DNA of 64,000 nucleotides from an uncultured Alphaproteobacteria bacterium (GTDB lineage: Bacteria > Pseudomonadota > Alphaproteobacteria > HIMB59), in NCBI GenBank assembly GCA_902529795.1, contig CABZXY010000002.1, positions 1-64,000 of the forward strand, in the 5' to 3' direction. A program made the translations under genes and the position numbers. The notes under the pieces are model-generated. The model saw only the letters and a program-made list of their open reading frames with translations, did not search any database and was not told where the DNA came from. Of this stretch, positions 14,884 through 35,581 are shown piece by piece. How positions within the stretch are numbered: position 1 is the first letter of the stretch; each line of letters begins with the position of its first letter.

Positions 14884-14912
14884 AAAAATTTACCTCATAT
14901 AAATTGGCAATA

Positions 14913-16085: not shown

Positions 16086-17543
16086 TTATTTGTCTAAACC
16101 GCACATATTGACATACTTAATCTCTATAAAATCGTCAATACCGTATTTTGATCCTTCACGTCCTAGACCGGACTCTTTGATACCACCAAATGGTGCTTCG
16201 GCTTTCGAGGTTAAACCTGTATTCACCCCTACCATACCGTATTCTAATGCTTCAGCTACTCTCCATATTCTTCCAATATCTCTCGAATAAAAATAAGAGG
16301 CCAATCCGTATGGGGAGTTGTTGGCAAGCTCGATCACTTCCTGCTCATCTTTAAACTTATATACAGGAGCTACTGGGCCAAATGTTTCCTCAGATGTGAT
16401 CTTAGCTTGAGGTGTAACATCAGTTAAGATTGTGGGCTGGTAAAAATTCATACCAAGCTCATGGCGAGAACCCCCAATAGCAACTTTAGCTCCCATTTGC
16501 ACTGCATCTTGAACGTGTTCTTCCACTTTACTTAAAGAATGCTCATCAATTAATGGTCCAGATGCTACAGCTTCGTCCAGTCCATCGCCTACTTTTACCT
16601 TAGACACTGCCTCAACAAATTTTTGACAAAACTCATCATATACTTTTTCTTGCACATAAACTCTATTTGCACAGACACAGGTTTGACCCGTATTACGGAA
16701 TTTACTTTGCATAGCTCCAGCAACAGCATCATCAATATTTGCATCATCAAATACAATGAAAGGAGCATGGCCTCCGAGTTCCATGGATACTTTTTTTACA
16801 GTTCCAGAACATTTTTCTAATAAAATTTTTCCAATTTCGGTGGATCCAGTGAATGATAATTTTCTAACAATAGGGTTTGTGGCTAATTCATCACCAATTT
16901 CTGAAGCTTTTCCCGTTATTACATTCAGAATTCCTTTTGGAAAACCAGCCTCTTCTGCTAGTACGGCTAAAGCAAGTGCAGAAAAAGGAGTTTGACTTGC
17001 TGGTTTGATAACCACTGGACAACCAACTGCTAGAGCTGGTGCACATTTACGTGTGATCATAGCATTAGGAAAATTCCAAGGGGTAATAGAGGCAACAACG
17101 CCTACTGGTTGTTTTAAAACTACAATCCTACGATCGGTCATTGGATCAGGAATTGTATCTCCATAAACTCTTTTTGCCTCTTCAGAAAACCACTCAACAA
17201 ATGATGCACCATATCCAATTTCACCACGTGACTCATTGATAGGCTTGCCTTGTTCGACTGTCATCATTTGAGCTAATTCTTCTTTATTTTCAATCATCAG
17301 ATCAAACCATTTACGAAGAATGTCAGATCTTTGACGAGCAGACTTGGCTCTCCACTCAGGCCAAGCGGCATTTGCTACTTCTATTGCTCGCTTTGTTTCA
17401 TTAGTGCCACATTTAGGAACTGTTCCAATTTCGTTCAAAGTAGCAGGATTATTAACACTGATAGTTTCACCAGAGTCTGCTTTGACCCACTCACCGTTTA
17501 TATAACATTTATCACGATAAAATTTCGACTCAGATATTTTCAT
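16086..17543 (-). CDS. gabD: NAD(P)-dependent aldehyde dehydrogenase, succinate-semialdehyde dehydrogenase family
   Basis: TPWNFPNAMITRKCAPALAVGC, ELGGHAPFIVFDDANIDDAV, GQTCVCANRVYV, EETFGPVAPVYKF, EAPFGGIKESGLGREG. GabD-like, though true substrate is unknown. Confidence 0.85.
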   Translation of the reverse strand: MKISESKFYRDKCYINGEWVKADSGETISVNNPATLNEIGTVPKCGTNETKRAIEVANAAWPEWRAKSARQRSDILRKWFDLMIENKEELAQMMTVEQGKPINESRGEIGYGASFVEWFSEEAKRVYGDTIPDPMTDRRIVVLKQPVGVVASITPWNFPNAMITRKCAPALAVGCPVVIKPASQTPFSALALAVLAEEAGFPKGILNVITGKASEIGDELATNPIVRKLSFTGSTEIGKILLEKCSGTVKKVSMELGGHAPFIVFDDANIDDAVAGAMQSKFRNTGQTCVCANRVYVQEKVYDEFCQKFVEAVSKVKVGDGLDEAVASGPLIDEHSLSKVEEHVQDAVQMGAKVAIGGSRHELGMNFYQPTILTDVTPQAKITSEETFGPVAPVYKFKDEQEVIELANNSPYGLASYFYSRDIGRIWRVAEALEYGMVGVNTGLTSKAEAPFGGIKESGLGREGSKYGIDDFIEIKYVNMCGLDK

Positions 17544-17800: not shown

Positions 17801-18784
17801 CTATTCTCCTTTAACTTTTTTTATAACTTCTTGAACTATCACATCAACTGATGGAATTGTATTGTCTTCTAATATATCAGCGCTTGGTAGCGGTACATGT
17901 GGTGTAGTTAATCTAGTAACTGGTCCTTTTAAGTTATTAAAGCAATGTTCAGTAATTAAAGATGAAATTTCCGCACCCCATCCACATAATCGTGGATTTT
18001 CCTCTACAGTCATGGCAAGACCAGTTTCATTAATTGCGCTTTTAATTGATTGAAGATCTAATGGCACCAAAGTTCTCAAATCAATAACTTTAGCGTTAAT
18101 ATTGTGTTTTTCTTTTAATTCTATTGCTGCCTTTTTTGCTCTTTGAGCCATCAAAGCAAGACCAATTATAGTGATATCACTACCTTCATGAAGAATATTA
18201 GATTGTCCTAATGGGATTGATAATTCTGTAGACTCTAATTCCTCTTTGGACGCATAAAGAGATTTATGCTCATAAAAAATTACAGGATCAGGATCATTTA
18301 CTGCGCTGTTCATTAATCCTAACACATCTCCGGGTGAACTTGGAGCAACAACTTTTAATCCTGGAATCATCATCGACCAGTTTTCTAAGCTTTGAGAATG
18401 TTGGGCTCCAAACTTAGAACCACCTCCATTTGCTGTTCGAATAACTAAAGGAATGTTTATTTGCCCATCAGACATGTATCGAGTTTTAGCAATTTGATTA
18501 GCAACAATATCCCAACATACGGCCAAAAAATCTGAAAACATAATTTCTGCAATAGGTCTAAGACCAGCCATAGCTGCTCCCATAGCTGCTCCTAAAATAG
18601 CTTGTTCAGATATAGGAGTATCCATCACTCGATCTTTTCCAAATTCATCGAGAAGTCCCACTGTAGCTTTAAATACTCCCCCTGCAGCACCTACATCTTC
18701 ACCAATGAAAAATACCTTAGGATCTTTTCTCATAGCTTGTGCAATGGCTAGCGAAACACTCTCTCGATATGTTAATTGTGCCAT
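17801..18784 (-). CDS. TPP-dependent 2-oxoacid/acetoin dehydrogenase E1 beta subunit
   Basis: FFIGEDVGAAGGVFKATVGLLDEFGKDRVMDTPISEQAILGAAMGAAM; PDPVIFYEHKSLY. Confidence 0.92.
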   Translation of the reverse strand: MAQLTYRESVSLAIAQAMRKDPKVFFIGEDVGAAGGVFKATVGLLDEFGKDRVMDTPISEQAILGAAMGAAMAGLRPIAEIMFSDFLAVCWDIVANQIAKTRYMSDGQINIPLVIRTANGGGSKFGAQHSQSLENWSMMIPGLKVVAPSSPGDVLGLMNSAVNDPDPVIFYEHKSLYASKEELESTELSIPLGQSNILHEGSDITIIGLALMAQRAKKAAIELKEKHNINAKVIDLRTLVPLDLQSIKSAINETGLAMTVEENPRLCGWGAEISSLITEHCFNNLKGPVTRLTTPHVPLPSADILEDNTIPSVDVIVQEVIKKVKGE

Positions 18785-19776
18785 TTGTAGCCTCCATCAG
18801 CCCAAACATCTGTAAAAATTTCTTTAACATCTGGTATAGCCGATGCTTTAGAAATTTCAGTAGCTTCTTCCACTTGTTCCTTAACTTTATTTTCAATCTC
18901 GGAGATAATCTCTTCATCAATATTAAATTCTAAAAGTCTTTTTCTATAATTAGTAATAGGGTCTTTGTTCTCCATCCAATCTTTGACTTCTTCATCAGGT
19001 CGGTACTTTCCTGGATCTGCGCGTGAGTGACCACTATGTCTATATGTTTTAGCCTCAATTAAACTAGGTCCGTCACCATCTCTTGCTTTTTTGATAGCAG
19101 CTTGAGCAGTTCGATACATCTCATCTGCATCATTCCCATCAACGATGATTTTCTCCATATTGTAGGCAGAGGCTCTGTCAGCAGCAGGGTTTTCAACCGC
19201 GGTGACTTCTCCAATAGGCGTATACTCCATATAAAGATTATTCTCACAAACAAAAACGATAGGTAGTTTCCATATTTGAGCCATATTTAAGGCTTCATGA
19301 AAAGCGCCTATATTTGTAGTACCATCTCCAAAAAAACACACACTAACTTCTTTAGTATTATTATATTTCGATGCTAGAGCAGTTCCATTTGCTATAGTTA
19401 AATGTGCGCCAATGATTGCGTAAGAACCCATGACACCTTTATCAACATCAGTTAAATGCATAGAACCACCCTTACCCTTCATAAGGCCACATTGTCTGCC
19501 CATTAATTCGCCTAAAACTCCTTCAATAGAAGAGCCTCTTGCTAAAGTGTGAGCATGGCCACGATAAGTGCAAAAAGTATAATCACCCTCTTGAAGAGAC
19601 ACTCCAAAAGCTCCAGCAATAGCCTCTTGACCAAGAGCTAGGTGACTAGTTCCTTTAATGAGATTTTGAAGAAATAAATCATAAGCTTTTTTCTCGACGA
19701 GTCTCAATTTGAGCATCATCTCCCAAAGTGCTAACCGATTACTCTCTCCAATATCATCATTAGTAATATCAACCAT
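18772..19776 (-). CDS. TPP-dependent 2-oxoacid/acetoin dehydrogenase E1 alpha subunit
   Basis: GTSHLALGQEAIAGAFG, GKGGSMHL, CFFGDGTTNIGAFHEALNMA..LPIVFVCENN (TPP motif), TYRHSGHSRADPGKYR. Confidence 0.93.
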   Translation of the reverse strand: MVDITNDDIGESNRLALWEMMLKLRLVEKKAYDLFLQNLIKGTSHLALGQEAIAGAFGVSLQEGDYTFCTYRGHAHTLARGSSIEGVLGELMGRQCGLMKGKGGSMHLTDVDKGVMGSYAIIGAHLTIANGTALASKYNNTKEVSVCFFGDGTTNIGAFHEALNMAQIWKLPIVFVCENNLYMEYTPIGEVTAVENPAADRASAYNMEKIIVDGNDADEMYRTAQAAIKKARDGDGPSLIEAKTYRHSGHSRADPGKYRPDEEVKDWMENKDPITNYRKRLLEFNIDEEIISEIENKVKEQVEEATEISKASAIPDVKEIFTDVWADGGYKWHN

Positions 19777-21065
19777 TAATATTTGTTTGCGATTGGAAGT
19801 TCTTCAGCGGGGAATAAAGAGATGACTTGACATCCCTTATCAGTCACAATTAGCTCCTCTTCAATTCTTGCAGCAGAATAACCATCCTTTGCAGGACAGT
19901 AAGTCTCTAAAGCAAAAACCATACCCTCTTTAATTTCTGTTGGAGAGTCCATTGAAACTAATCGACTAATAATAGGTCTTTCATGAATTGCTAAACCCAA
20001 ACCGTGCCCAAACTGAAGTGCGAATGCATCCATCTCATTAGCAAAACCAAACTCCTCTGCTTTGGGCCATACCGATGCAATTTTATCTGTTGATGCACCT
20101 GGCTTTACAAGTTCAATTGCCTTGTCTAGCCACTCTCGACATTGTTTGTATGCATCATTTTGAACATCCGAGGCTCGGCCTATATTAAATGTTCTATAAT
20201 AACATGTACGGTATCCCATATAAGATTGTAAAATATCAAAGAAAGCTTGGTCTCCGGGTCTGAAAGTTCGATCAGTGAAATTATGAGGATGAGGGTTACA
20301 TCGCTCACCAGAAATTGCATTTATAGCTTCCACATCATCTGATCCAAGTTCATAGAGAAGCTTATTTGCATTAGCTACAATTTGAGCCTCACTCACACCA
20401 GGCTTCATTGTTTCATAAATTTGGTGATAAGTAGCATCGACCATAGAAGCTGCTTGATTTAATAACATTAATTCATCTTGAGATTTGATTTCTCTAGCTT
20501 CTAATAAAATTTGTTGTCCATCGATAATCTTTAAACCCTCAGCCTGAAGAGCAAACATCATTGAAGGTTCAACCAAATCTACTCCAACGGGTTCATTTGC
20601 AAGGCCTTTTTCTTCCAACATTGACTTGATTTCTCGGGCAGCACGCTTCATAAGACCTGCATCAGGATGGACTGTACCTCTCAAACCTACCATTCCAGCT
20701 TTCCAATTTTCTTCAGGTAGCCAAGGTGAAAAGATTTGATGATGTTTTGCTGCAGATCCAAAATCCCACAAGACAGGGTCATGACCTTGGGGTAATAGTG
20801 AGTATCGAGCGATTTTATCTCTAGACCACTCGCCAATTACTGTGCTTGTGAGATATCGGATATTGTTATTATCAAAACAAAGGAGGGAACCTGCTTGAGA
20901 ATTATTTAGGGCTTGTTTAGCTCTACCCAGTCTGTATTTATGGAGCCTCTGGAAATTAATTCTTTCCTCGTAATCAACATTCATCGTTCCATGCGAGGGA
21001 ACTCGACGATGCCATTGATAATTAGGATTAATGTCCTCTGGTTTTATAATTTTAGGTTCAGACAT
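19776..21065 (-). CDS. M24 (pita-bread fold) family protein, Xaa-Pro aminopeptidase-like, with an altered metal site
   Basis: DQAFFDILQSYMGYRTCYYRTFNIG, FGHGLGLAIHERPI, EGMVFALETY, ARIEEELIVTDKGCQVIS. The usual second metal Asp (D-x10-D) is Cys. Confidence 0.85.
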   Translation of the reverse strand: MSEPKIIKPEDINPNYQWHRRVPSHGTMNVDYEERINFQRLHKYRLGRAKQALNNSQAGSLLCFDNNNIRYLTSTVIGEWSRDKIARYSLLPQGHDPVLWDFGSAAKHHQIFSPWLPEENWKAGMVGLRGTVHPDAGLMKRAAREIKSMLEEKGLANEPVGVDLVEPSMMFALQAEGLKIIDGQQILLEAREIKSQDELMLLNQAASMVDATYHQIYETMKPGVSEAQIVANANKLLYELGSDDVEAINAISGERCNPHPHNFTDRTFRPGDQAFFDILQSYMGYRTCYYRTFNIGRASDVQNDAYKQCREWLDKAIELVKPGASTDKIASVWPKAEEFGFANEMDAFALQFGHGLGLAIHERPIISRLVSMDSPTEIKEGMVFALETYCPAKDGYSAARIEEELIVTDKGCQVISLFPAEELPIANKY

Positions 21066-21869
21066 TTATTGAATGACCATTCCTCCATCAATCATTAAAA
21101 TTTGCCCAGTCATATAATCAGACTCGCCAGAGGCTAAAAATGATGCTGTACCAACGATATCCTCTGGATAAGAGTATCTTTTCATTAAAATCATATTCTC
21201 AGCAATCGAGTCCATGGACTCACCGTGATTTTTAAATTTACCCATAGCAACCAGTTCTTTGTCTAGCTGTTCCCACATTTCAGTTCGAACAACTCCTGGA
21301 CCATATCCATTTACATTAATTCCATATTCAGCTAAACCTTTAGCACCACCTTTTATCAATCCAGCTACCGCATGTTTGCTCGCACCATAAATGACAACAT
21401 CATCAAAAGTTTCACGAGATAAAATTGAAGCAACATGAAGTATTTTATAAGGTTCTTTTTGTTTTCCTTGTTTAATCATTTGACGAGCTTGCTCTTGCAT
21501 ACCAAGCCAAGCACCTCGAACATTAATATCAAAAATAAAATCATAATTTTCTTCAGTGACATCCATAAACCATAGAGGTTTATTCACGCCTGCGTTATTC
21601 AGAGAAACATTTAAGCTACCAAAGGCTTCTACGGTAGCATGAACAGCAGCAACATGATCTTCTCTTTTTCTAACGTCTAATTTGCAAGAAATAGCCTCTC
21701 CACCGGCAGAGCGAATTCTCTCCTCTACCTCTTTGCATCCATCTAAATTAACGTCTGTAATACAAACTTTTGCACCTTGGGCACAATAATGTTCAGCGAT
21801 TGCTGCTCCCATTCCTTGGGCAGCTCCAGTAATTAAAACGTTTTTTCCCTTAAGTCTTTCCTTATCCAT
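21066..21869 (-). CDS. Short-chain dehydrogenase/reductase
   Basis: VLITGAAQGMGAAIAEHY, NNAG, YGASKHAVAGL, DGGMV. Confidence 0.93.
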   Translation of the reverse strand: MDKERLKGKNVLITGAAQGMGAAIAEHYCAQGAKVCITDVNLDGCKEVEERIRSAGGEAISCKLDVRKREDHVAAVHATVEAFGSLNVSLNNAGVNKPLWFMDVTEENYDFIFDINVRGAWLGMQEQARQMIKQGKQKEPYKILHVASILSRETFDDVVIYGASKHAVAGLIKGGAKGLAEYGINVNGYGPGVVRTEMWEQLDKELVAMGKFKNHGESMDSIAENMILMKRYSYPEDIVGTASFLASGESDYMTGQILMIDGGMVIQ

Positions 21870-21929: not shown

Positions 21930-21946
21930 ATATTCAAAATGAATAT
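21930..21946. promoter_or_regulatory. Putative operator ATATTCA-AAA-TGAATAT (site 2)
   Basis: 7-bp perfect inverted repeat with 3-nt spacer, in the gap upstream of the SDR gene. Same arms and spacer as the site at 26731-26747. Confidence 0.55.
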
Positions 21947-22980
21947 TATTTACCTAAGACAGTTCTCTTCTTTTCAAGCAATGCTGTTTTTCGTTCATCA
22001 ATAGTTTCTAGCAGACTTTTCCTAGCTTGCCGTGAGTCAAATATTCGAGACATTGTTTGGAAGACAATGACAATAACTAATAGTACTGAAGTGAATAATT
22101 GAACGAAATGGACCTGAAGCGCATAGAAAACGAGCCCTGTATTTAAAAAGTTTACAGTCAAAGCTCCAATTGCAGCTCCTAAAACACCACCTTTACCTCC
22201 CAAGATACTAACACCGCCTACAAAAGCTGCTACAGTTCCAGCCAAAAGTAAATACTGTAAACCCAAGCCTTGAGCTGTGCCAGATTTCAAACCGATAACA
22301 GTACCAGCAAAACCTGCACAGAAGCCAGAAAGTGCAAAAGCTATAATCATTGGACGTCTTAATGGAATACCGGCTGTTAAAGCTTCTTTACGGGCTCCGC
22401 CAATGGCATAAATCTCTCTACCATATTTTGTATAACGCATAAAGATACCCACACATATAAAAATGAAAATAACAGTAAGACTTGCTGGAGAAAAATACAT
22501 TAAAACTTTTGTTGTAATAAAGTCAGGAACTCTGAAATCAGTAAGCATTACTGTTTTCTCCTCTGCTATCAAAAGAGCGACACCTCTCAAAAGCATTAAT
22601 GTTCCTACAGTAATAACGATTGCTCTTATTCTTATAAAAGCTATGACGAAACCTTGAGTTGCACCAATAAGAGTTGATACAGATAATCCAATTAACATAG
22701 CCAAGGGAGCTCCTAAAGGGTCAGTTAGCTTTACAACAATAACGGCACAAAGCGCTGCATTGGATCCAATTGATAGATCAATTTCTCCAGCAATGATGCA
22801 AATAGTTAAAGCCAATCCAACTAGGCCCAAAACAGCAAATCTCTCTAAAATTGCAAATGAAATGTTATGGCTAAAGAAAACTTCAATGTTCATGGCAAAG
22901 AAGACATATACACAAAAAGATAATAAAATAGCAAAAGATAAGTCAACGTCTTTGGTAATTCTTTTCATTAAATTGTCCAT
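21946..22980 (-). CDS. Sugar ABC transporter permease (RbsC/AraH family)
   Basis: ICIIAGEIDLSIGSNAALCAV, VTVGTLMLLRGVALL, FVGGVSILGGKGGVLGAAIGALTVNFLNTGL. Confidence 0.92.
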   Translation of the reverse strand: MDNLMKRITKDVDLSFAILLSFCVYVFFAMNIEVFFSHNISFAILERFAVLGLVGLALTICIIAGEIDLSIGSNAALCAVIVVKLTDPLGAPLAMLIGLSVSTLIGATQGFVIAFIRIRAIVITVGTLMLLRGVALLIAEEKTVMLTDFRVPDFITTKVLMYFSPASLTVIFIFICVGIFMRYTKYGREIYAIGGARKEALTAGIPLRRPMIIAFALSGFCAGFAGTVIGLKSGTAQGLGLQYLLLAGTVAAFVGGVSILGGKGGVLGAAIGALTVNFLNTGLVFYALQVHFVQLFTSVLLVIVIVFQTMSRIFDSRQARKSLLETIDERKTALLEKKRTVLGK

Positions 22981-24020
22981 TATTCCTGTGCCCTACTTCC
23001 TTTTGCAAACAATCCAAATACAATAATACTAAATACAATCATTAAACCTACTCCTACAATTCTAGGACCACTATTAAAACCCTGTAAAACCATCATATTA
23101 TCTACCATAGCGATAAATATGGCGCCCAAGCTTGTTCTCAAAGTAGATCCATAACCTCCCATGATTGAGTTTCCACCTACCATGACTGTTGCAATAACCA
23201 AAATTGTCATATCACCAGAAGAACCAAATTCAGCAGAAAAATAGTTTGATTGTGCGCTATCCATTTGGGCAACAAATGCTACAGCTACAAATGCACAGCA
23301 AACAGAACAAATAGTGAATACAATTATTGCCATTGAGAAATTTTCATGACCGGTAGCTTTTCCTGCTGCCTTATTAGCACCGACTAAATAAACTTTTCTT
23401 CCAAAATTAGTGTGTCTCAATACAATTTCTGCTGCTATAGCAATAAGAATAAAAGACCAGGTAATACTTGGCAGACCCAAGAATGAGCCCGTTCCTAGCC
23501 ACTCAGCATCATGAGGTCTTGTAAAATTTATAACAAGATTATCACTCCACCATGCGCCTATACCATATAGTATTCCAGCACCACCAAGAGTAACAACAAT
23601 GGGGTTACCTCCCATTCCAACAAAATATCCTTGGATAACTCCACTCACAACTCCCACAGCTAGAGCTGCTAGAAGTGAGACCATAAAATTTCCTGCTAGG
23701 TCTGGTGAACCAAATCCAGTAGCCATTCCCATTGCAAAGGTAACACCACAAATGGAAGCTGTTTCTTTGAGTGACAGTAAAAAGAAATTTCCCGATAAAG
23801 TCACAAATGTTAAGCCAATTGCCATAATGCCATATAAAGCAGCATCTCTTATTATTGCCTTAAAGTTAGTAATAGTTAGGTAATTATCTGTGAAAAAGAT
23901 TCCATAAACAAACATCACGGCAAAAAGAGATAATAAGATAGCTAAAAGCGTTCGATCTTTATAAAATTGTAAAAATTTGGCAGAAATTGGTTGCTGGCTT
24001 TCTTGGATAACTGTGCTCAT
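22980..24020 (-). CDS. Sugar ABC transporter permease (RbsC/AraH family)
   Basis: FVTLSGNFFLLSLKETASICG, VVTLGGAGILYGIGAWW, VMVGGNSIMGGYGSTLRTSLGAIFIAMVDNMM. Confidence 0.9.
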   Translation of the reverse strand: MSTVIQESQQPISAKFLQFYKDRTLLAILLSLFAVMFVYGIFFTDNYLTITNFKAIIRDAALYGIMAIGLTFVTLSGNFFLLSLKETASICGVTFAMGMATGFGSPDLAGNFMVSLLAALAVGVVSGVIQGYFVGMGGNPIVVTLGGAGILYGIGAWWSDNLVINFTRPHDAEWLGTGSFLGLPSITWSFILIAIAAEIVLRHTNFGRKVYLVGANKAAGKATGHENFSMAIIVFTICSVCCAFVAVAFVAQMDSAQSNYFSAEFGSSGDMTILVIATVMVGGNSIMGGYGSTLRTSLGAIFIAMVDNMMVLQGFNSGPRIVGVGLMIVFSIIVFGLFAKGSRAQE

Positions 24021-25525
24021 AAATTTGTCTCGTTAAATGGATCAGTAATTTCTTTTAGGATAGTCGGTGTCTGAATATTTTCTAAACGATGTTCATCAAT
24101 CATCATGCCTCTGTAGAAAGTGATTACTCGGTCTGGTAAATAAGTAATTTCTTGTATGTCAGTAGATGCGAAAATTATCGTAATTCCTCTTGCAGCAAGG
24201 TCTCTCATTCTTTGATAAATTTCTGATTTTGCTCCTACATCTACCCCTCGGGTGGGTTCATTTACCAATAAAACATCTGGTTTGATTGAAAGCCATTTAC
24301 CAAGTGCTACTTTTTGTTGATTTCCTCCACTTAAGAGACCCGATTCATCAAACATTCTTCTAACATCGATTAGAAATTCTTTTGCTAAGTTCTTGGAGAA
24401 GTCTTGTTCTGTAGCTCCAAAATTAAAACCATAATTAGAAATAGCGCTTAATGCCGGAGAAGTTAAATTTTCAAATATGGGCCTACCCAAAAATAAGCCA
24501 TCTTTTTTTCTATCAGAAGAACAATATGCAATTTTTTTCTTAATAGCCTGACTGGGAGATTTAGGCAAAAAAGTTTCACCATTTAAAGTTAACGAACCAG
24601 AGCGTGATTTAAGAGCACCAGCAATTGAAGCTAAGATTTCACCAGCCCCACTTCCAAGCTGACCAGATAGTCCTAGTATTTCTCCTTTATAAGCTGAAAA
24701 GCTAACAGGTTCCAAAACTCCATCTGGCCATAAATCTTTAATTTCTATTTTAGGATCATTGCTAATATGATCTGCCTTGGCAGGAAACATATTTGCTAAT
24801 TCTCTACCGAGCATAATCTCTACTAATTTATTAACATCAATATCTTTAGTCTGCTGAACACCTTGACTGACTCCATCTCTTAAAATTGTAATTCTTTTTG
24901 TAATTTTAAAAATTTCATCAAGTCTATGGCTAACATAAATAATAGATTTGCCATTTGCAGCTAAGCGCTCAACCATTTCTAAAATTCTTCGACTCTCGGC
25001 TTCACCTAAAGCTGCGGTAGGCTCGTCTAAAATTAAAATTTTTGCTTCTCTTGAAATTAGTCTTGCTACTTCCACTAAATGCTGCTCACCGACAGAAAGT
25101 AAATTTATTCTTGTAGTAGGATCAACATCTGTTAAACCGACCTCATTAAGATAAGGACGAGCCATTTTGGCCAATGTATTTAAAGTAGCAAACTTTTTGA
25201 CTTTAGCGCCCGTAAGAAAAATATTTTCAGCCACCGACATGTTAGGTATCAAACTTAATTCTTGTTGTGCTATAGCAATACCGGACTCCTCCGCTTGAGA
25301 TGGAGTTTCAAATTTTACTTCTTGCCCATTAATTTGATAACTGCCTTTAAAGCCAGGATCAAAACCGCTTATAATTTTAACTAAAGTAGATTTTCCAGCT
25401 CCGTTCTCCCCAACAAGACCCATAATCTCGCCCTCATTGATTTCAAAATTTGCTTCTTTTAGGGCTTGAATAGCGCCAAAGGTGCGAGAAACTTTTGATA
25501 TTTTGAGGATTGGATTTGAAGCCAT
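24017..25525 (-). CDS. Sugar ABC transporter ATP-binding protein (RbsA/AraG-like, two NBDs)
   Basis: Two ABC cassettes: GENGAGKSTLVKII, LSVGEQHLVEVARLI, LILDEPTAAL; second LSGGNQQKVALGKWLSIKPDVLLVNEPTRGVDVGAK. Confidence 0.94.
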   Translation of the reverse strand: MASNPILKISKVSRTFGAIQALKEANFEINEGEIMGLVGENGAGKSTLVKIISGFDPGFKGSYQINGQEVKFETPSQAEESGIAIAQQELSLIPNMSVAENIFLTGAKVKKFATLNTLAKMARPYLNEVGLTDVDPTTRINLLSVGEQHLVEVARLISREAKILILDEPTAALGEAESRRILEMVERLAANGKSIIYVSHRLDEIFKITKRITILRDGVSQGVQQTKDIDVNKLVEIMLGRELANMFPAKADHISNDPKIEIKDLWPDGVLEPVSFSAYKGEILGLSGQLGSGAGEILASIAGALKSRSGSLTLNGETFLPKSPSQAIKKKIAYCSSDRKKDGLFLGRPIFENLTSPALSAISNYGFNFGATEQDFSKNLAKEFLIDVRRMFDESGLLSGGNQQKVALGKWLSIKPDVLLVNEPTRGVDVGAKSEIYQRMRDLAARGITIIFASTDIQEITYLPDRVITFYRGMMIDEHRLENIQTPTILKEITDPFNETNL

Positions 25526-25621: not shown

Positions 25622-26665
25622 TTAATCCCAAGCACCTGAGCAAAGCTCATTGATACCGTATAACTTACCGTCAAATCCTCTTAATGCAGTGAAGTCCATA
25701 GTGGCGCCTGTCACTGAAGGGTTTGGAGTAAAGTTAATGTACTGAGCTAACTCACCATTTTCCATGTACTCTTTAACAAGAGCGATAGCTAACTGACCTT
25801 CATGAAGAGGTGATTGAAGAGTTGTGCCGAATTGCTTACCATCAGTAATCATCTGTTTATCACCATTACATACAGTACCTACAGTTATAACAGCATCGCT
25901 ATCTACGCTACCGCTTTTACCAGTACCTGCATACCAATCAACATTATAACCAGCTTCTTCAAGAGCTTTAATACCACCAGTTAGGATCGCATCATCCATT
26001 CCGTACACGAAATGAATACCCTGATCTTTAACCTTTGCAATTAATTTTGCTGCACCCTTATAGCCATTAGCTTGACCAAAACCTTCACCGATATCTCCGA
26101 TTAAATTTAGATCTGTACCAGCAATAGCTTGTTTGAATGCATTAATTGAAAGACCATATCCACCATAAGAGTGTGGGTATGATAGTGCGATTACGTTAAA
26201 TCCATCACCGCCCGCAGCTTGTTTCATCTTCATAGCTTTAACCATCATTTCACCTGCGTTGTAAGCACGAAGGCTATCGTCTGGTCCAGCATATCCAAAG
26301 ATAAATGCCTTATCCTGTTCGTTAGGTAATTGATTAATCTTTAAAACCGGAACTCCAGTTTTTGCTAATTTTCTAAGTGAACCTAAGCCCGCTACTGCAT
26401 CAGGTGGCCACCAAATAAATACATCTGGAAGTGCACCACTTGATAGGTATTGTTCAACTTGTTGGTTTTGCTCAGCTTGGTTATAGTTGTTTTCAAAAAC
26501 AGTAATGTCATAACCATATTGCTCAGCTGTTGCTTTAATTCCTTTTACGAACGCTCCCACATAAGCCTCAGAAGACGCCGCGTTAAAGGAAACGATTTCC
26601 ACTGCCTTAGCAGAACCGAAAGAAAAGCACATCAAAACAGCTAATACTTTGATTAGTTTGTTCAT
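25622..26665 (-). CDS. Sugar ABC transporter substrate-binding protein (RbsB-like, Peripla_BP_4 type)
   Basis: Signal peptide MNKLIKVLAVLMCFSFGSAKA; AFVKGIKATAEQYGYDITVFENNYNQAEQNQQVEQYLSSGALPDVFIWWPPDAVAG; GMDDAILTGGIKALEEAG. Confidence 0.88.
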   Translation of the reverse strand: MNKLIKVLAVLMCFSFGSAKAVEIVSFNAASSEAYVGAFVKGIKATAEQYGYDITVFENNYNQAEQNQQVEQYLSSGALPDVFIWWPPDAVAGLGSLRKLAKTGVPVLKINQLPNEQDKAFIFGYAGPDDSLRAYNAGEMMVKAMKMKQAAGGDGFNVIALSYPHSYGGYGLSINAFKQAIAGTDLNLIGDIGEGFGQANGYKGAAKLIAKVKDQGIHFVYGMDDAILTGGIKALEEAGYNVDWYAGTGKSGSVDSDAVITVGTVCNGDKQMITDGKQFGTTLQSPLHEGQLAIALVKEYMENGELAQYINFTPNPSVTGATMDFTALRGFDGKLYGINELCSGAWD

Positions 26666-26730: not shown

Positions 26731-26747
26731 ATATTCAATTTGAATAT
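26731..26747. promoter_or_regulatory. Putative operator ATATTCA-ATT-TGAATAT (site 1)
   Basis: Inverted repeat (8+1+8) in the divergent intergenic region between SBP operon (starts 26665, -) and wHTH-SBP regulator (starts 26781, +). Confidence 0.6.
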
Positions 26748-26780: not shown

Positions 26781-28466
26781 ATGAATAGAAACGAAATTTC
26801 AACTCTTTTAAAGTTTGTAAGTAAAACAAGAATTTTATTCAATAAAACTGTCTCTAATCAAACTATTGATGCGGATTGGAGAATATTTTCCTATGTCATT
26901 TCAAATCATCTTGAAAACAAATTATGTACCACAACCAGCATCATACAGGTATCAGGCTTACCTTTTGCAACAGGTTTAAGAAAAGTAAATAAATTAATCA
27001 AAGAAAAAAAACTAATTAAAAGATCTAAGACAAAATCTGGAAAATCTTTTTCAATACATCCGAGTGGTGATTTGATTAAAGAATTTACAGAATACCTTTT
27101 ACTCATCAAAAATGAATTTGCATCCCAACTTGGATTTGGTGGTATCGATAATAATTTTTATTTTGGAACTTCTTTATCTCTAGGAAATATAATTCCTGCA
27201 CCAACTGTAATTACAAATCAAAGTAAAAAATTTAAAAGAATTCGATTTTTATCAAATGACAATCCTACCTTTAAAGTAATAAATAAAAATTTAGATTTCT
27301 TTGAATACATTTTTGATTGTAAAATTGAACTAACGATTGAAAGTGATTTAAAAAAACTTTTAAATAAAATTATTACGAACTCTCAATCAAATCTAAAATC
27401 TAAATTTGATATTGTTGCATTTAACATTCCCTGGATAGGTCAACTAGTAAATTTAAATTGTTTAACCCCCCTAGATCAGCATGTTGAGAAAATAGGCTTA
27501 AATTTAAATGACTTTCATTACTCAGGTATTCGATCAAGTTCATTCAAAAAACAACTTTTTGGAATTCCGATAGAGGCCATTCCTGATTTATTGTTTTATA
27601 GGAAAGATTTATTCCAAAAGTATGGAATAAAGCCTCCAGTAAATTATGAAGAACTATTTTCTGCTTGTAAAATTCTCAAAGGTGCTAATGAAATTGAGAG
27701 TCCCATTTCTTGGCCTGCTAGAAAAGGTCAACCTCTAGCTACTAGTTTTATTTTAGCGATGGCTAACTTTGGTAAACCCTATATCAACTTAAGATATATT
27801 GGAGATAACATTTATGATCTTGACTTAGAAAAGATATCTTTAAAAGCAAATTTTCTATCTGAAGCAGCATTTCATGCCGCTGAAATGCTTAAGGAATTGA
27901 CTTCATATTCACCTAAAAATATTTCCGCTCATTCTAATGATGAGTGTGTTGAATATTACAGCCATGGTAAATCTGCAATGGTTTTGAATTGGAGTAGTCG
28001 AGCTCATCTTTTTGAATTAAATAAAAATTCCCCTGCATATAATCAGACTAGTTACTTACCCAGACCCGCTGGGCATCCCTCATTTCAAGTTTCGCCTATA
28101 GGCGGATTTTCTTTGGGTATTCCTTCTAATATTTCCTATGAAAAGATACCTTTTATAATGGCAAATATTAGAAAGTTTGTGTCACCAGAAATAATTAAGT
28201 ATTACATTGAGCACGGAAGTTTATCCTCACCTTTATTTAGTGTAGTGAACGATCCTGAAGTAAGAGCTCTGAGTCCAATCTTTAATGAGCTCGATAAGAT
28301 GGAAAAAGATGAAAAATTTGTCGAATGGGCAAGATATCCCTTGCCCACTTATTCAAATATTATTGAAGAAGTTGGTAATAAAATTTTCAATTACCTTTTT
28401 CTAAATGAAGATCTTAGTTCAACTTTAGAAAGTTGTCAGGCGACCGCACAAAAATATTTAAAATAA
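26781..28466 (+). CDS. Predicted one-component regulator: MarR-like winged-HTH fused to a family-1 solute-binding-protein domain
   Basis: N-terminal wHTH (TTTSIIQVSGLPFATGLRKVNKLIKEKKLIKRSKTKSGKSFSIHPSGDLIKEF), no signal peptide. C-terminal ~400 aa has SBP_bac_1 pattern (FDIVAFNIPWIGQLVNLNCLTPLDQHV, GIPIEAIPDLLFYRKDLFQKYGIKPPVNYEELFSACKIL, GKSAMVLNWSSRAHLFEL, PIGGFSLGIP). Confidence 0.8.
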   Translation: MNRNEISTLLKFVSKTRILFNKTVSNQTIDADWRIFSYVISNHLENKLCTTTSIIQVSGLPFATGLRKVNKLIKEKKLIKRSKTKSGKSFSIHPSGDLIKEFTEYLLLIKNEFASQLGFGGIDNNFYFGTSLSLGNIIPAPTVITNQSKKFKRIRFLSNDNPTFKVINKNLDFFEYIFDCKIELTIESDLKKLLNKIITNSQSNLKSKFDIVAFNIPWIGQLVNLNCLTPLDQHVEKIGLNLNDFHYSGIRSSSFKKQLFGIPIEAIPDLLFYRKDLFQKYGIKPPVNYEELFSACKILKGANEIESPISWPARKGQPLATSFILAMANFGKPYINLRYIGDNIYDLDLEKISLKANFLSEAAFHAAEMLKELTSYSPKNISAHSNDECVEYYSHGKSAMVLNWSSRAHLFELNKNSPAYNQTSYLPRPAGHPSFQVSPIGGFSLGIPSNISYEKIPFIMANIRKFVSPEIIKYYIEHGSLSSPLFSVVNDPEVRALSPIFNELDKMEKDEKFVEWARYPLPTYSNIIEEVGNKIFNYLFLNEDLSSTLESCQATAQKYLK

Positions 28467-29288
28467 TTATTTGATTTCCATTTTTTCAGCTGGCTGAGGT
28501 GGTGCAAATGGATAACCTCCCCAAACTGACTGATCAAAGTTTACAACTGATCCTGTCATCATCCCTGAGTCATCAGATGCAAGAAAGGCTACAGCTTTAG
28601 CAACCTCTTTTGGATCAAGCAACCTCTCAAATGGCTGAGCTTTTGCAGCATCTTCTAACCAATTTTCAGGAGCGTTGTGATATTTTGTTTGAATTTCGTG
28701 CTCACCATCTGAAGCCATCCATCCAATATTAAGTTGGTTGACGCGTATTTTGTTTTTAAGCAGAGCAAAGGCGGTGTTTCTGGTTAAAGTGGCTAATGCC
28801 CCTTTTGAAACACAATAAGTTGAAATAAATGGCTGTCCCGTCATCGCAGCTACTGAACCTATATTAATAATAGAACCTTGAATATTTTGTTCGATCATAA
28901 TTTTGACAGTATCTTGAATCAAAAAATATGGGCCCTTTAAGTTGACACCAATCATCTTATCGAAAAGTTCCTCTGAGGTGTCAACGATATTTCCTCTATC
29001 AGTAATGCCGGCAGCATTAACTAGGACATCTATCTTTCCAAATTCTTGTTTAGCAACTTTAACTGCATTTCTACATTGATCTACTTCAGGAAGGTCTGTC
29101 TTTACGAATAAAACTTTACACCCTGTATCCTCAGTAATTTTTTTTGCAACCACTTTTCCTTTTTCCTCTGATCTTCCAACAGTAATTATTCCAGCTGCAC
29201 CATTTTCTGCCAAACGATGAGCTATAGCAGCTCCCAAACCTTGTGTTCCTCCTGTGATTAAAGCAAATTTTCCATCAATTCTATTCAT
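28467..29288 (-). CDS. Short-chain dehydrogenase/reductase
   Basis: ALITGGTQGLGAAIAHRL, VNAAGITD, YCVSKGALATLTRN. Confidence 0.92.
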   Translation of the reverse strand: MNRIDGKFALITGGTQGLGAAIAHRLAENGAAGIITVGRSEEKGKVVAKKITEDTGCKVLFVKTDLPEVDQCRNAVKVAKQEFGKIDVLVNAAGITDRGNIVDTSEELFDKMIGVNLKGPYFLIQDTVKIMIEQNIQGSIINIGSVAAMTGQPFISTYCVSKGALATLTRNTAFALLKNKIRVNQLNIGWMASDGEHEIQTKYHNAPENWLEDAAKAQPFERLLDPKEVAKAVAFLASDDSGMMTGSVVNFDQSVWGGYPFAPPQPAEKMEIK

Positions 29289-30193
29289 AACTTATACCCT
29301 TCAATTTCATATCCATGCATATTTAAGCACTCGACTAATTCTTTGTTTCCAATTTTTGCATACTCTAAGGGGTTAGCTTTAGCTGGGTCTTGTTCAGCTT
29401 CCACAATAAACCACCCTTCATATTCATTTTCAGCCAAAGTTTTAATAACCTCTTTAAAATCAATGCTGCCATCCCCAGGTACCGTAAAGGCACCCTTTAA
29501 TACAGCATCAAGAAAACTCTCTTTTCTGCGGTCTAGACTATTTACCACTTCTGATCTTATATCTTTAGCATGGAAGTGGTTCATTCTTTTAGCATACTTA
29601 TTAATTACATTAATAGAGTTACCACCAGCAAAAGTCATGTGTCCCGTATCAAAAAGTAAATAAACAGCTTCTCCTGTATGACTCATTAATAAGTCCAGTT
29701 CCTCTTCTGTTTCAATTGCTGTGCCCATGTGATGATGAAATGAAATTGGCATTCCAAAATCAGCGCAGTATTCAGCAAATGCAGTTAATTTTTTGCCATA
29801 TTCTTTAAAGTCCTCTGGATGAATTTTTCTTTTGGTGTTCAAGGGAGCATTTCGAACATTTTGAATTGTTCCAGCAGTCTCTCCATAAACTAAACAGGGT
29901 GCATTCAAATCTCTAAACAAGGTAAGCTGCTCATGTGCTTTATCTTTTTCTTTTTCAAGATCATTATCTAAGATGGTTCCTGAATACCATCCAGATGCCA
30001 GATAAAGTTCATGTTTTTGTAAAATAGGACCAAGCTCATCAGAAGTTTTAGGAAATTTGCCTCCTGTCTCAACTCCTGAAAATCCAGCAAGTTTTGACTC
30101 ACTTAAGCAAGTTTCTAGTGTGGTCTCCCCTCCAAGTTCTGGGAGATCGTCGTTAGACCATGCGATTGGTGCTATTCCAAGTTTAGCTTTCAT
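29285..30193 (-). CDS. iolE: Inosose dehydratase-like TIM-barrel protein
   Basis: GIAPIAWSNDDLPELGGETTLE N-terminus typical of IolE; FHHHMGTAIETEEE; LFDTGHMTFAGG; FHAKDIR. Confidence 0.88.
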   Translation of the reverse strand: MKAKLGIAPIAWSNDDLPELGGETTLETCLSESKLAGFSGVETGGKFPKTSDELGPILQKHELYLASGWYSGTILDNDLEKEKDKAHEQLTLFRDLNAPCLVYGETAGTIQNVRNAPLNTKRKIHPEDFKEYGKKLTAFAEYCADFGMPISFHHHMGTAIETEEELDLLMSHTGEAVYLLFDTGHMTFAGGNSINVINKYAKRMNHFHAKDIRSEVVNSLDRRKESFLDAVLKGAFTVPGDGSIDFKEVIKTLAENEYEGWFIVEAEQDPAKANPLEYAKIGNKELVECLNMHGYEIEGYKL

Positions 30194-30292
30194 ATTTTAA
30201 TTCCATTATGAAGAGATGATCATACTTAAAAATAAATCTTTGTGAAAACTTTTTTATTTTTTTGTCTTATAACTAGTTTATAAAATTTCTTT

Positions 30293-31297
30293 ATGAAAAA
30301 AATTAATATAGCAGTTCTTGGTTGTGGCAGGATCGGCCAAATGCATGCAAGAAATATAGCCCTGCATGAAATGACTTCTTTGGCATGTGTGTACGATATC
30401 AATAAAGAATTTGCCAATAAAGTATCATTTGATTTGGGCGTATCTGCTGTAACGAATGACCAAGAGGTATTTTCTGATGAAAACATTGATGCCATACTAA
30501 TTGCTTCTCCTACAGATACCCATATTGAATTTATTGAAAAATCGGTGGCAGCAAATAAACCTGTTTTATGTGAAAAACCAATTGATCTCGATATTAATAA
30601 AGTCAATGAATGTGCTGAAAGATTAAAAGGTAATTCCGTTCCCATTCAATTAGGCTTTAATCGTCGATTTGATCCAGGTCATCTTTCGGCAAAAAATTCT
30701 TTAATAGCTGGTGAAATCGGTGATCTTCATCAATGTATTATCACTTCAAGAGATCCAGGTCTTCCAAGCTGGGATTATTTAAAGGTTTCAGGTGGTCAAT
30801 TTCGTGATATGACAATCCACGATTTCGACTTAGCTCGATTTATGTTGGGAGAAGAGCCTATTCGAGTCTTTGCTATATCCAATGCCTTAGTTGAGCCTAA
30901 AATTAAATCAGAATTAAATGATAGTGATACATTGATGGTAATCATGGAGACCGCTTCTGGCAAACAATGTAACATCATTAATTCACGATCCGCTGCTTAT
31001 GGTTATGACCAGAGAGTAGAACTCTTTGGGTCTAAAGGAATGGTAATCAGTGATAATCGTAAAGCTCATGAAGTTAAAAAATTCTCATCTAATTTTGTTG
31101 AACAAAAAGATCCCTACTTAAATTTCTTCATTGAGAGGTATCAAGAGGCATACATGAATGAAATTACTGCTTTTGTTGAGGCAATTGTAAATAAAACCCC
31201 ACCTACTGTAGATTTTGAAGATGGACGTAAAGCACTAATTTTAGCCGAGACTGCTTTCAAATCTATTGCGAGTGGGAAAATGGAAACTATTGATTAA
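30293..31297 (+). CDS. iolG: Inositol 2-dehydrogenase-like Gfo/Idh/MocA oxidoreductase
   Basis: NIAVLGCGRIGQMHARNIA, CEKPIDLD, QLGFNRRFDPG, SRDPGLPSWDYLKVSGGQFRDMTIHDFDLARFMLGEE. Confidence 0.9.
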   Translation: MKKINIAVLGCGRIGQMHARNIALHEMTSLACVYDINKEFANKVSFDLGVSAVTNDQEVFSDENIDAILIASPTDTHIEFIEKSVAANKPVLCEKPIDLDINKVNECAERLKGNSVPIQLGFNRRFDPGHLSAKNSLIAGEIGDLHQCIITSRDPGLPSWDYLKVSGGQFRDMTIHDFDLARFMLGEEPIRVFAISNALVEPKIKSELNDSDTLMVIMETASGKQCNIINSRSAAYGYDQRVELFGSKGMVISDNRKAHEVKKFSSNFVEQKDPYLNFFIERYQEAYMNEITAFVEAIVNKTPPTVDFEDGRKALILAETAFKSIASGKMETID

Positions 31298-32189: not shown

Positions 32190-32978
32190 CTAAACTGCTT
32201 CAAGTTCTTTTGCTAGATCGCCGATCTGCGCACCACCTGCCATTAAACGTTTTACATCATCGCCGCCTAGCTCTGATGATAAACCTGCACCAATAACTTC
32301 TCCAAGACTTAGGAAGGTAAACCGATCCGCAATTAATCTTGCATGAATCTCGTTATGGGTAATTAAGATAATTGCAATGTTTCCAAGTTGTTGAACTTTT
32401 TTGATTGTTTTTAAAACTTCCATTTGCTGTTTTTGACCAAGAGCAGAAGTTGGCTCATCCAGAATAAGAACTTTTGCACCAAAATAGATCGCTCGAGCAA
32501 TCGCTAAAGTTTGTCTTTGTCCACCTGACATTGTACCCACTAATTGAGTGGGATCTGAAATATTAATTCCAATTTTTCCCATCTCTGCGATAGCTATTTC
32601 ATTCATGGCATCGAAATCTAAAATACCTAAAGGACCAGGTCCTTTTTTTAATTCATTTCCCAAAAAGAAATTTCTTGTAACTGAGGTTAGTGCATTTAGC
32701 GCTAGATCCTGATAAACAGTACCAATACCTGCTGCAGTCGCTTCTCTTGGAGATCCAAACTTCACTTCATTACCTGCAACTTTAATAGTTCCAGATGTAG
32801 GTTGGTGAACCCCAGATAGAACTTTAATTAAAGTAGACTTTCCAGCTCCATTATCACCTAGTAAGGCGTGAACCTCTCCTGGTAAAACGTTCAAAGAAAC
32901 TCCGTTTAATGCAGTGAATGTCCCAAATTTCTTTACTAAATCAGTAATTTCAATAAAAGGTGTTTTGCTATCAGCCAT
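32190..32978 (-). CDS. Sugar ABC transporter ATP-binding protein (single NBD)
   Basis: LLGDNGAGKSTLIKVLSGVHQP, MSGGQRQTLAIARAI, VLILDEPTSALG. Confidence 0.94.
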   Translation of the reverse strand: MADSKTPFIEITDLVKKFGTFTALNGVSLNVLPGEVHALLGDNGAGKSTLIKVLSGVHQPTSGTIKVAGNEVKFGSPREATAAGIGTVYQDLALNALTSVTRNFFLGNELKKGPGPLGILDFDAMNEIAIAEMGKIGINISDPTQLVGTMSGGQRQTLAIARAIYFGAKVLILDEPTSALGQKQQMEVLKTIKKVQQLGNIAIILITHNEIHARLIADRFTFLSLGEVIGAGLSSELGGDDVKRLMAGGAQIGDLAKELEAV

Positions 32979-32979
32979 T

Positions 32980-34569
32980 TTATATACTACCTATAATACG
33001 TTTTCTAATATTTTCGTTAGTTAAGGCTGATGCAATAATAACCAGGCCTAAGAAGACACGATAGAAAGAACCATCAATACCTGGAATATAAAAGAATGCT
33101 TCTTTGGCTATTCCAAAAATAAAAGCACCCACACATATACCTAGTATGGTTCCAAAACCCCCTGTCAATACAACTCCACCGATCACCGCAGCAGCAATTG
33201 CTTCTAATTCTTTTAGATTTCCCTTTGCAGCATCTGCGGTATTAACCTCAAATACTTGGCAAGTAGCAAAAACAGTTGCACAAAATGCAGAGAACATAAA
33301 TAAAGAAACTTTCACTTTGTCTGTAGGCACACCGTTTGCTTTGGCTGCGCTTAAGTTTCCACCAGTTGAATAAATCCAGTTACCTGCTTGAGTACGACTT
33401 AAAACGATATAACAAACAATAGCAATAATTAGCCAAATCATTACACAAGAATAAAGACCTGGCGCAAATTGATTTCCAAAATTATTTGTATTCCAATCAA
33501 TTGGGAAGTATAACCAATCAAACATCGGCTCTAATATATCTCCACCAAAAAAGTTTGCGACAGGTTGGGCTGAATATAAAGAGTCAATGTAAACTCTTGC
33601 TATATCAACATCAGTAACAGTTTTAGGAACTACTGGGTCAATTTGAAAATTAGCAATTTTTTCTTGTATCATACCTACCATGTATTCATTTCCAGTAGAC
33701 TGAGCATTAGCTAGGGCTTCTTGTAATGGTTTTGTTCCTTTATCAACTAAGATTTGAGTCTTTGCGTCTGCTACTCTTTGATAAGTGTATTCTAATCTTT
33801 CTGTAATCTTTGCGATTGTATCTGCAGGCAAAGATTGTGCCATTGATACTAGATCTGCTTCTGGCAGAGCTTTTGCTTTTTCTCTTACCATCTCGCCGTG
33901 GCCAGGAACATCTACGATATTTTTAATATCAGGTATTTCAGTAACTGTTGTTGCTCCTTTGGCTTGATCGGGTCGGTGGTTAAAGGAACGAAGAGAGACT
34001 TCAGTTAATCCTCTGAGAAAGAATAATCCTCCCAAAGTGACGATGAAAGAAGGTAATCCAGATCTTACAACAATCGTTCCCTGGATCCACCCAAAGAAAA
34101 GAGTGAAAATTAAAGTAATGAAAATTGCTAGAATTGGAGAGACGTCAGATATGTGAAATAAAGTATAAAACTCAATATGAAAACCGCCTTCAAATGAGAA
34201 ATAAGGAATAATAAAAGAAAAACCCCATCTTAATATCATCGCCATGCAGGCGCCAGCAAAGCCGATCATTGAACCAATGGAGAGATCAAACTCTCCAGCA
34301 ATGATTAACATACCAGCTCCAATAGCAATTATTCCTAGCTGAGAGATAACTCGAAGAAAGTTTCTAATGCCTAAGGCATTAAAACCCTCTCCGGTAAATG
34401 GGTTCCAGGACATTTCTCCTGCAGGAATAGAAAAGTAACCAAGCATACCAAAGAGTAAAAGCATAACACCAATAGGACCTATTTCTGGTCTGGAAATAAG
34501 TGCTGTTAGCCAAGTTTTCTTTTGATGTCTGTCTGACTCTTGTCTTTGAGGGGTTGATGTTGCGGACAT
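32980..34569 (-). CDS. Sugar ABC transporter permease (RbsC family) with a ~170-aa internal insertion
   Basis: RbsC-like core (LIIAGEFDLSIGSMIGFAG, SFIVTLGGLFFLRGLTEV, AAVIGGVVLTGGFGTILGICVGAFIFGIAKEAFFY) interrupted by a hydrophilic helical segment (about aa 195-365). Confidence 0.9.
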   Translation of the reverse strand: MSATSTPQRQESDRHQKKTWLTALISRPEIGPIGVMLLLFGMLGYFSIPAGEMSWNPFTGEGFNALGIRNFLRVISQLGIIAIGAGMLIIAGEFDLSIGSMIGFAGACMAMILRWGFSFIIPYFSFEGGFHIEFYTLFHISDVSPILAIFITLIFTLFFGWIQGTIVVRSGLPSFIVTLGGLFFLRGLTEVSLRSFNHRPDQAKGATTVTEIPDIKNIVDVPGHGEMVREKAKALPEADLVSMAQSLPADTIAKITERLEYTYQRVADAKTQILVDKGTKPLQEALANAQSTGNEYMVGMIQEKIANFQIDPVVPKTVTDVDIARVYIDSLYSAQPVANFFGGDILEPMFDWLYFPIDWNTNNFGNQFAPGLYSCVMIWLIIAIVCYIVLSRTQAGNWIYSTGGNLSAAKANGVPTDKVKVSLFMFSAFCATVFATCQVFEVNTADAAKGNLKELEAIAAAVIGGVVLTGGFGTILGICVGAFIFGIAKEAFFYIPGIDGSFYRVFLGLVIIASALTNENIRKRIIGSI

Positions 34570-34629
34570 ATATATTTTTAATTAATAATTTTTAAATTTA
34601 AGTTCAAGTAGTTGTTAATTTTTTTAAAA

Positions 34630-34660
34630 AAAAAGTGGGTAGTTTAACTACCCACTTTTT
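34630..34660 (-). terminator. Stem-loop/attenuator between SBP and permease genes
   Basis: AAAAAGTGGGTAGTT-T-AACTACCCACTTTTT, near-perfect palindrome. On the minus strand it is followed by a T-run (TTTTTTTTT), so it fits a partial intrinsic terminator. Confidence 0.75.
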
Positions 34661-34678
34661 ATAATTTATAGATTAATA

Positions 34679-35581
34679 CTATCTGTCAATACCTGCTAAA
34701 GCAGCCACTGATGAAGCATTTGACTTGTCAACAAATCCAGGTCCTGATGGAATGTTTGCACCAGGTAGAAGGCCAGCACCATTGTTGTATAAGTGTAATA
34801 CTACAACAGGCATATAACCTTGTAGACGTTGTTGTTGGTCGATAGTGAAAGCAACTTTACCCTCATTAATTAAGTCCATCACAGGTGGGCTTAAGTCGAA
34901 ACAAGAGTGGTGTACAGACATACCTAACTCGTCAATAGCTTGTTGAACACCTACACAAACGTGTGGTCCAACAGATAATACAGCGTCAACATCTGGGTTA
35001 GCTTGTAAACCAGCAGCCGCTCTTGTTGGGATAGTAGCTGGGTCATTTGAGCTATCTACTAAAGTAGTAGGAATAGCTTCACCATAACCACCACATCTAT
35101 CAGTTAGAGCAGTGTTGTAAGCTTCTTGAATCATACATAGAGCTTTAGTAGCACCTTCTGCTTTAGCTCTTGCACCAGCTGACTGACCAGCTAAAAATTC
35201 TGGCTGACCAACGTGCATTAACGCACCTAAAGAAGCTGAAGACTCAAGACCTGAGTTCATTGTGATAACTGGAATACCAGCAGCAACAGCATCTTTAATA
35301 GCTTGACCTAGAGCTTCAGGATCAGGTAGAGAAACTACCATACCGTCAGGCTGAGTAGCTGCAGCAGCAGCAATTGACTTAGCCATATCGCCCATATCAC
35401 CTGATGGGTTGAAAATGTATTCAAAATCTGCACCTACGTGTCTAGCAGCATCTTCACCACCTTTTTGCACAACAGGCCAGAAAGGGTCTTTACCCTCACC
35501 GTGTGTAACCATTACATATCTTTCAGCAAAAGCTGATAAAGATAGGAATGATACCAATATTGTAAGAATTATTTTTTTCAT
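34679..35581 (-). CDS. Sugar ABC transporter substrate-binding protein (RbsB-like)
   Basis: Signal peptide MKKIILTILVSFLSLSAFA; GEGKDPFWPVVQKGGEDAARHVGADFEYIFNPSGDMGDMAKSIAAAAATQPDGMVVSLPDPEAL. Confidence 0.9.
   Translation of the reverse strand: MKKIILTILVSFLSLSAFAERYVMVTHGEGKDPFWPVVQKGGEDAARHVGADFEYIFNPSGDMGDMAKSIAAAAATQPDGMVVSLPDPEALGQAIKDAVAAGIPVITMNSGLESSASLGALMHVGQPEFLAGQSAGARAKAEGATKALCMIQEAYNTALTDRCGGYGEAIPTTLVDSSNDPATIPTRAAAGLQANPDVDAVLSVGPHVCVGVQQAIDELGMSVHHSCFDLSPPVMDLINEGKVAFTIDQQQRLQGYMPVVVLHLYNNGAGLLPGANIPSGPGFVDKSNASSVAALAGIDR

Follow-up and report, generated by a model that had tools for sequence, protein, structure and literature searches.

A predicted cytoplasmic regulator of the HIMB59 clade that joins a MarR-like winged helix to a complete family-1 solute-binding domain

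The 64,000-nucleotide stretch of DNA analysed here (the window) carries a gene whose product is best read as a cytoplasmic one-component regulator, a reading to which we assign a probability of about 0.8. The N-terminal winged helix-turn-helix (wHTH) of this protein would act on the motif TATYCAWNWTGRATA and its C-terminal solute-binding protein (SBP) domain would serve as the sensor, with the regulator controlling its own gene, a CUT2 transporter and the SDR1-M24-E1 genes. The regulator gene and its two domains were located as follows.

26781..28466, plus strand: regulator gene, MarR-like wHTH and complete family-1 SBP (open reading frame; Pfam; homologue alignments)
26871..27128, plus strand: modelled wHTH core, aa ~31-116 (AlphaFold2 model; Foldseek to the MarR family; HTH_IclR match of a homologue; charge)
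27249..28463, plus strand: complete SBP domain, aa ~157-561 (SBP_bac_1/8; profile alignment to 5iai and 1eu8)

The open reading frame encodes 561 aa from an ATG start, and the assignment of this start is right, given that all 23 aligned homologues of the HIMB59 clade begin with MNRNEI. Its close relatives include a protein of 99% identity from a Pelagibacteraceae MAG and another of 91% identity from alpha proteobacterium HIMB59 MED-G104. A scan against NCBIfam returned nothing usable. Kyte-Doolittle hydropathy analysis detected neither a signal peptide nor a membrane segment: the maximum 15-residue mean at the N-terminus was 0.99, versus 2.0-2.5 in two secreted SBPs from the same window that served as positive controls. 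With the same controls, the secretion signal or lipobox typical of a working transporter SBP was not found in the regulator, and hydropathy revealed no export signal in any family member tested. These values agree with a preliminary description of this DNA, in which the protein was taken to be cytoplasmic and to lack a signal peptide, and on sequence grounds we predict that location.

The same description had read the first ~115 aa as a MarR-like wHTH, and structural modelling supports this. In the AlphaFold2 model of aa 1-146, in which the core mostly exceeds a pLDDT of 90, a helix (aa 3-19) precedes a wHTH core composed of three helices (31-44, 51-58 and 62-74), two strands (78-82 and 90-94) and a final helix (96-116). 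The wing (aa 76-95) is basic, with seven K/R and no D/E residues. A Foldseek search of this model against the PDB gave MarR-family regulators as all but a few of the 50 best matches, with probabilities of 0.96-1.00 and a best E-value of 2.9e-3, none passing 1e-3. By sequence, the window regulator alone matched no HTH family significantly in Pfam, MarR included, and a Paraburkholderia homologue passed the HTH_IclR cut-off (31 versus 22 bits, 2.2e-7). Based on the model, its Foldseek matches and this homologue, we assign the N-terminus to the MarR-type winged-helix fold. A full-length AlphaFold2 model, built from 23 close homologues, had a pLDDT of 45 and was set aside.

The wHTH was also observed without the SBP. 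Stand-alone proteins of 144-146 aa, 42-45% identical to the regulator N-terminus, occur in other HIMB59 genomes (none above cut-off in a Pfam scan), and a related wHTH forms the output domain of receiver-domain (REC-wHTH) response regulators (L061-L066, L090), which match MarR_2 weakly, below the Pfam cut-off. Two of the stand-alone paralogues (L047:6400-6840 and L048:6313-6747) end in a conserved "ISLSSRYVLYPRIH" tail and adjoin a PotD-like SBP and transporter; they represent a further regulator of common descent that has no sensor. For some other relatives (L086, L088, L089), Pfam recognised no family in the N-terminal part. The presence of the wHTH alone and in response regulators argues against the protein being a non-regulatory, secreted SBP that was mis-started or carries an N-terminal extension, as do the missing export signal, an N-terminus conserved from residue 1 and the matching operators described below. 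Public annotation does favour such a protein, with nearly all annotated homologues labelled "extracellular solute-binding protein", and we nevertheless consider it very improbable.

The claim that an entire family-1 SBP follows the wHTH was borne out. Pfam matched SBP_bac_1 at 2.9e-15 (57.5 bits, cut-off 26) and SBP_bac_8 at 5.3e-14, the best stretches beginning at aa 183-201. A profile of 12 diverse homologues aligned aa ~158-561 to residues 31-421 of the 422 in the solved SBP 5iai (E 2.3e-41), a near-full alignment which shows that the SBP in the regulator is complete. The same profile aligned the region to most of 1eu8, and its closest relatives of solved structure included 4rya, an SBP labelled sorbitol-binding. 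A domain of this kind could still have lost solute binding and act in the DNA-binding regulator as a dimerisation or protein-interaction module, for example one that, like MalT or Mlc, monitors at the membrane how active a transporter is. The HIMB59 branch is indeed long in the SBP tree (1.03), and at some positions that the family conserves HIMB59 has another residue (D in "VDLPW" versus N215 in "FNIPW"). However, the domain is full length, selection has preserved the whole fold throughout the family, and in the whole-family alignment no variation is seen among 12 divergent members at GG441-442, W516, R518 or the G261/P263 motif, as a working cleft predicts. We therefore regard the loss of solute binding as unlikely and retain the SBP as the probable sensor.

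The genes on the other side of the regulator promoter region are listed below; the divergent transporter had been described as using an RbsB-type SBP, and the Peripla_BP_4 match of its first gene confirms it.

25622..26665, minus strand: RbsB-type SBP of the divergent CUT2 transporter, with signal peptide (Peripla_BP_4 8.5e-25; signal-like N-terminus)
24017..25525, minus strand: CUT2 transporter ATPase (open reading frame and synteny)
22980..24020, minus strand: CUT2 permease (open reading frame and synteny)
21946..22980, minus strand: CUT2 permease (open reading frame and synteny)
21066..21869, minus strand: SDR1, acetoin-reductase/butanediol-dehydrogenase-like
19776..21065, minus strand: M24-family protein, distant DddP relative
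18772..19776, minus strand: TPP-dependent 2-oxoacid/acetoin-dehydrogenase-type E1 alpha
17801..18784, minus strand: E1 beta
16086..17543, minus strand: succinate-semialdehyde-dehydrogenase-like aldehyde dehydrogenase (SSADH)

Across HIMB59 genomes, the regulator and the SBP-ATPase-permease-permease genes point away from each other, and the latter are followed by SDR1 and M24; in the window, E1 alpha and E1 beta come after M24. The M24 protein scored 107.9 bits against the model of DddP, a DMSP lyase, for which the cut-off is 600. Roseobacters have SDR1 (54-59% identical), M24 (64-66%), E1 alpha, E1 beta, a lipoyl protein and SSADH after the regulator, and the divergent transporter is a CUT2 system other than that of HIMB59. 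One further genome (G401) carries the same genes, including the same transporter (59-71%), in a changed order. The transporter swap and this rearrangement demonstrate that the regulator travels with the SDR1-M24 pair regardless. Linkage of the regulator to a CUT2 transporter was seen in HIMB59, Roseobacters, Skermanella, Agrobacterium, Paraburkholderia and others, and the Paraburkholderia transporter includes an RbsB-type SBP gene.

Several other genes were noted nearby. Inositol-catabolism-like genes flank the module on both sides (window 12247-16073 and 28467-31297); against curated cut-offs, IolE reached 403 bits (290) and IolG 394 (355), and an IolC-like kinase reached 296 bits, below its cut-off of 300. 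A second CUT2 transporter (32190-35581, minus strand) has an SBP resembling rhizopine-binding proteins at 235 bits, below the cut-off of 420. The window also encodes a fucose/sulfoquinovose-isomerase-like protein (35761-37164, minus strand; 95 bits against a cut-off of 700), the gene for which is present at that place in only some HIMB59 relatives.

Two candidate operators were identified.

26731..26747, in the spacer that separates the regulator from the transporter SBP gene: proposed operator 1, ATATTCAATTTGAATAT (conserved block; inverted repeat)
21930..21946, directly behind the permease gene and ~60 bp ahead of SDR1: proposed operator 2, ATATTCAAAATGAATAT (conserved in six lineages)

Between regulator and transporter, conservation is poor except in the ATATTCAANTTGAATAT block, the most strongly conserved part of this spacer. 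This block, an inverted repeat, was found in 14 of 14 aligned HIMB59 spacers with at most one mismatch, in the central bases, and it is kept even where the regulator protein is only 60% identical. Both operators are conserved in six HIMB59 lineages, operator 2 within diverged flanks, and in the genomes checked the two lie ~4.79 kb apart. The window contains two perfect copies of TATYCAWNWTGRATA, one in each operator (26732-26746 and 21931-21945), versus 0.03 expected, odds which are optimistic because the final motif was partly tuned on these data and refined while they were in view.

Two observations provide cleaner tests of the motif. In Rhodobacterales and relatives, related sites (ATYCAANTTGRAT) were paired exactly 21 bp apart in eight homologues, three of them (L124-L126; genomes of L078, L080, L081) outside the set from which the motif was derived, and no such pair arose in 300 shuffles. 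In G401, exactly two perfect TATYCAWNWTGRATA matches occur genome-wide, one in the spacer between SDR1 and the transporter and one ~80 bp before M24, and the regulator gene is not at a promoter; the sites follow the target genes and not the regulator gene. From these sequence patterns, TATYCAWNWTGRATA is the likely operator of the regulator and transporter genes and of SDR1 and M24. Upstream regions of rhizobial and other distant homologues (L057, L071-L075, L082) contained no HIMB59 motif, so that these must use another operator, and the rhizobial spacers showed no inverted repeat within the limits set. Homologues of rhizobia, Aminobacter and Loktanella (L072, L073, L074, L120) adjoin genes such as those for maleylacetate reductase, an intradiol dioxygenase, YciI and Gfo/Idh, neighbours which suggest a pathway ending in ring cleavage and a different operator.

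We propose that the MarR-like wHTH binds the palindrome TATYCAWNWTGRATA, probably as a dimer, and that the family-1 SBP would close in Venus-flytrap fashion on an intracellular small molecule, altering the affinity for DNA. Through operator 1 the protein would control itself and the divergent RbsB-type CUT2 transporter, and through operator 2 the SDR1-M24-E1 alpha/beta genes. In Rhodobacterales, two dimers may bind cooperatively on one face of the DNA. Most likely, the protein would be an autoregulated repressor that the imported solute, or else an early catabolite, releases. Alternatively, the regulator could activate transcription, the role that SgrR has at sgrS, and we treat this as a genuine if less favoured possibility: SgrR activates and yet represses itself (PMC13060122), and paired sites two helical turns apart suit cooperative activation equally well as repression. 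MarR-type wHTH proteins, however, are usually repressors. The promoter scan of the spacer was at chance level, and its single plus-strand promoter-like match overlaps operator 1, which is not decisive. Repression is accordingly held to be somewhat likelier than activation.

As for the inducer, a small polyol, cyclitol or vicinal diol is our weak guess, drawn from the acetoin-reductase-like SDR, the acetoin/pyruvate-dehydrogenase-type E1, SSADH, the nearby IolE and IolG, and the sorbitol-binding 4rya. Broad sugar transport is reported for the clade in passages of the AEGEAN-169 genome paper (PMC10308909), and those passages mention neither inositol nor the wHTH-SBP regulator.

The architecture is not limited to the window genome. 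When 385 sampled Alphaproteobacteria were searched with a wHTH profile, four genomes from outside the HIMB59 genus proved to encode full-length wHTH-SBP proteins, and a search over 399 sampled Pseudomonadota detected such proteins in seven genomes, one of which lies outside Alphaproteobacteria; each full-length match scanned with Pfam contained SBP_bac_1. The regulator is conserved across the HIMB59/AEGEAN-169 clade and also occurs in Rhodobacterales, Rhizobiales, Azospirillaceae and Paraburkholderia. Plasmids bear homologues in Phaeobacter, Tritonibacter, Marinovum, Skermanella, Agrobacterium, Rhizobium, Shinella, Aminobacter and Paraburkholderia. One genome (G727) holds three full-length regulator paralogues, two of them within 9 kb (L122, L123). 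In an SBP-domain tree that included 18 regulators and nine transporter SBPs, several of the comparison branches being long, all 18 regulators fell on one side of a branch with a support of 96/97, recovered in 95% of bootstrap trees. This single clade is consistent with one fusion. Of three SBP matches with ~530-aa frames that had been suspected as second fusions, one (L050) proved to be a Tat-like secreted SBP. On balance, we find it probable that these proteins form an undescribed proteobacterial regulator family that arose when a MarR-like wHTH was fused, once, to a complete MalE/UgpB-type SBP, that would sense solutes in the cytoplasm and would use TATYCAWNWTGRATA operators two helical turns apart.

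Annotation pipelines file wHTH-SBP proteins as secreted, so the regulator family and the regulons that it marks go uncounted, and this inflates the counts of SBPs in ocean genomes from which diet is inferred. Owing to the SBP fold, the ligand of the regulator is directly testable by thermal shift, and knowing it could show what substrate is handled by an uncharacterised marine CUT2/SDR/M24 pathway common to HIMB59 and Roseobacters. The protein further offers a natural example of a full family-1 SBP grafted onto a wHTH, which is useful for biosensor design.

Among known systems, LysR-type regulators such as CysB combine a wHTH with an effector domain of the type-II periplasmic-binding-protein fold. 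Their effector domains measure ~200 aa and have diverged from SBPs, whereas the regulator carries a ~400-aa family-1 SBP that Pfam recognises, and no Pfam match to HTH_1 or LysR_substrate was found in it. SgrR of E. coli and DsvR of Vibrio cholerae pair an HTH with SBP_bac_5 (PMC13060122) and resemble the regulator as cytoplasmic one-component proteins with an N-terminal HTH, a C-terminal type-II solute-binding domain and a link to sugar metabolism. SgrR differs in its SBP_bac_5 domain, where the window regulator has SBP_bac_1 and a MarR-like wHTH, and in operator and regulon. Pfam gave only SBP_bac_1 and SBP_bac_8 for the regulator, not SBP_bac_5, and no match to the SgrR-type N-terminal domain at E<=1. 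SgrR/DsvR and the LysR type already use type-II folds intracellularly, so the sensor principle is known and has more precedent than the preliminary description allowed. The literature searched yielded no paper on GntR-type wHTH/SBP fusions of Firmicutes, which would embody the same principle, and no description of wHTH-SBP_bac_1 regulators was found in open-access literature, where absence is weak evidence; the combination of a MarR-like wHTH, a complete SBP_bac_1, this operator and this regulon was likewise not found there. LacI/GalR proteins similarly reuse an SBP fold as a cytoplasmic sugar sensor, but theirs are type-I RbsB-like domains with a LacI HTH, whereas the regulator joins a MarR-like wHTH to a type-II MalE/UgpB-like domain, and Pfam matched neither the LacI HTH nor a type-I Peripla_BP domain in it. 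With MarR proteins, the regulator shares the wHTH topology and a palindromic AT-rich operator in a divergent spacer; those proteins, however, are ~140 aa long and their sensing takes place in the dimer interface, whereas in the 561-aa regulator a separate SBP would do the sensing.
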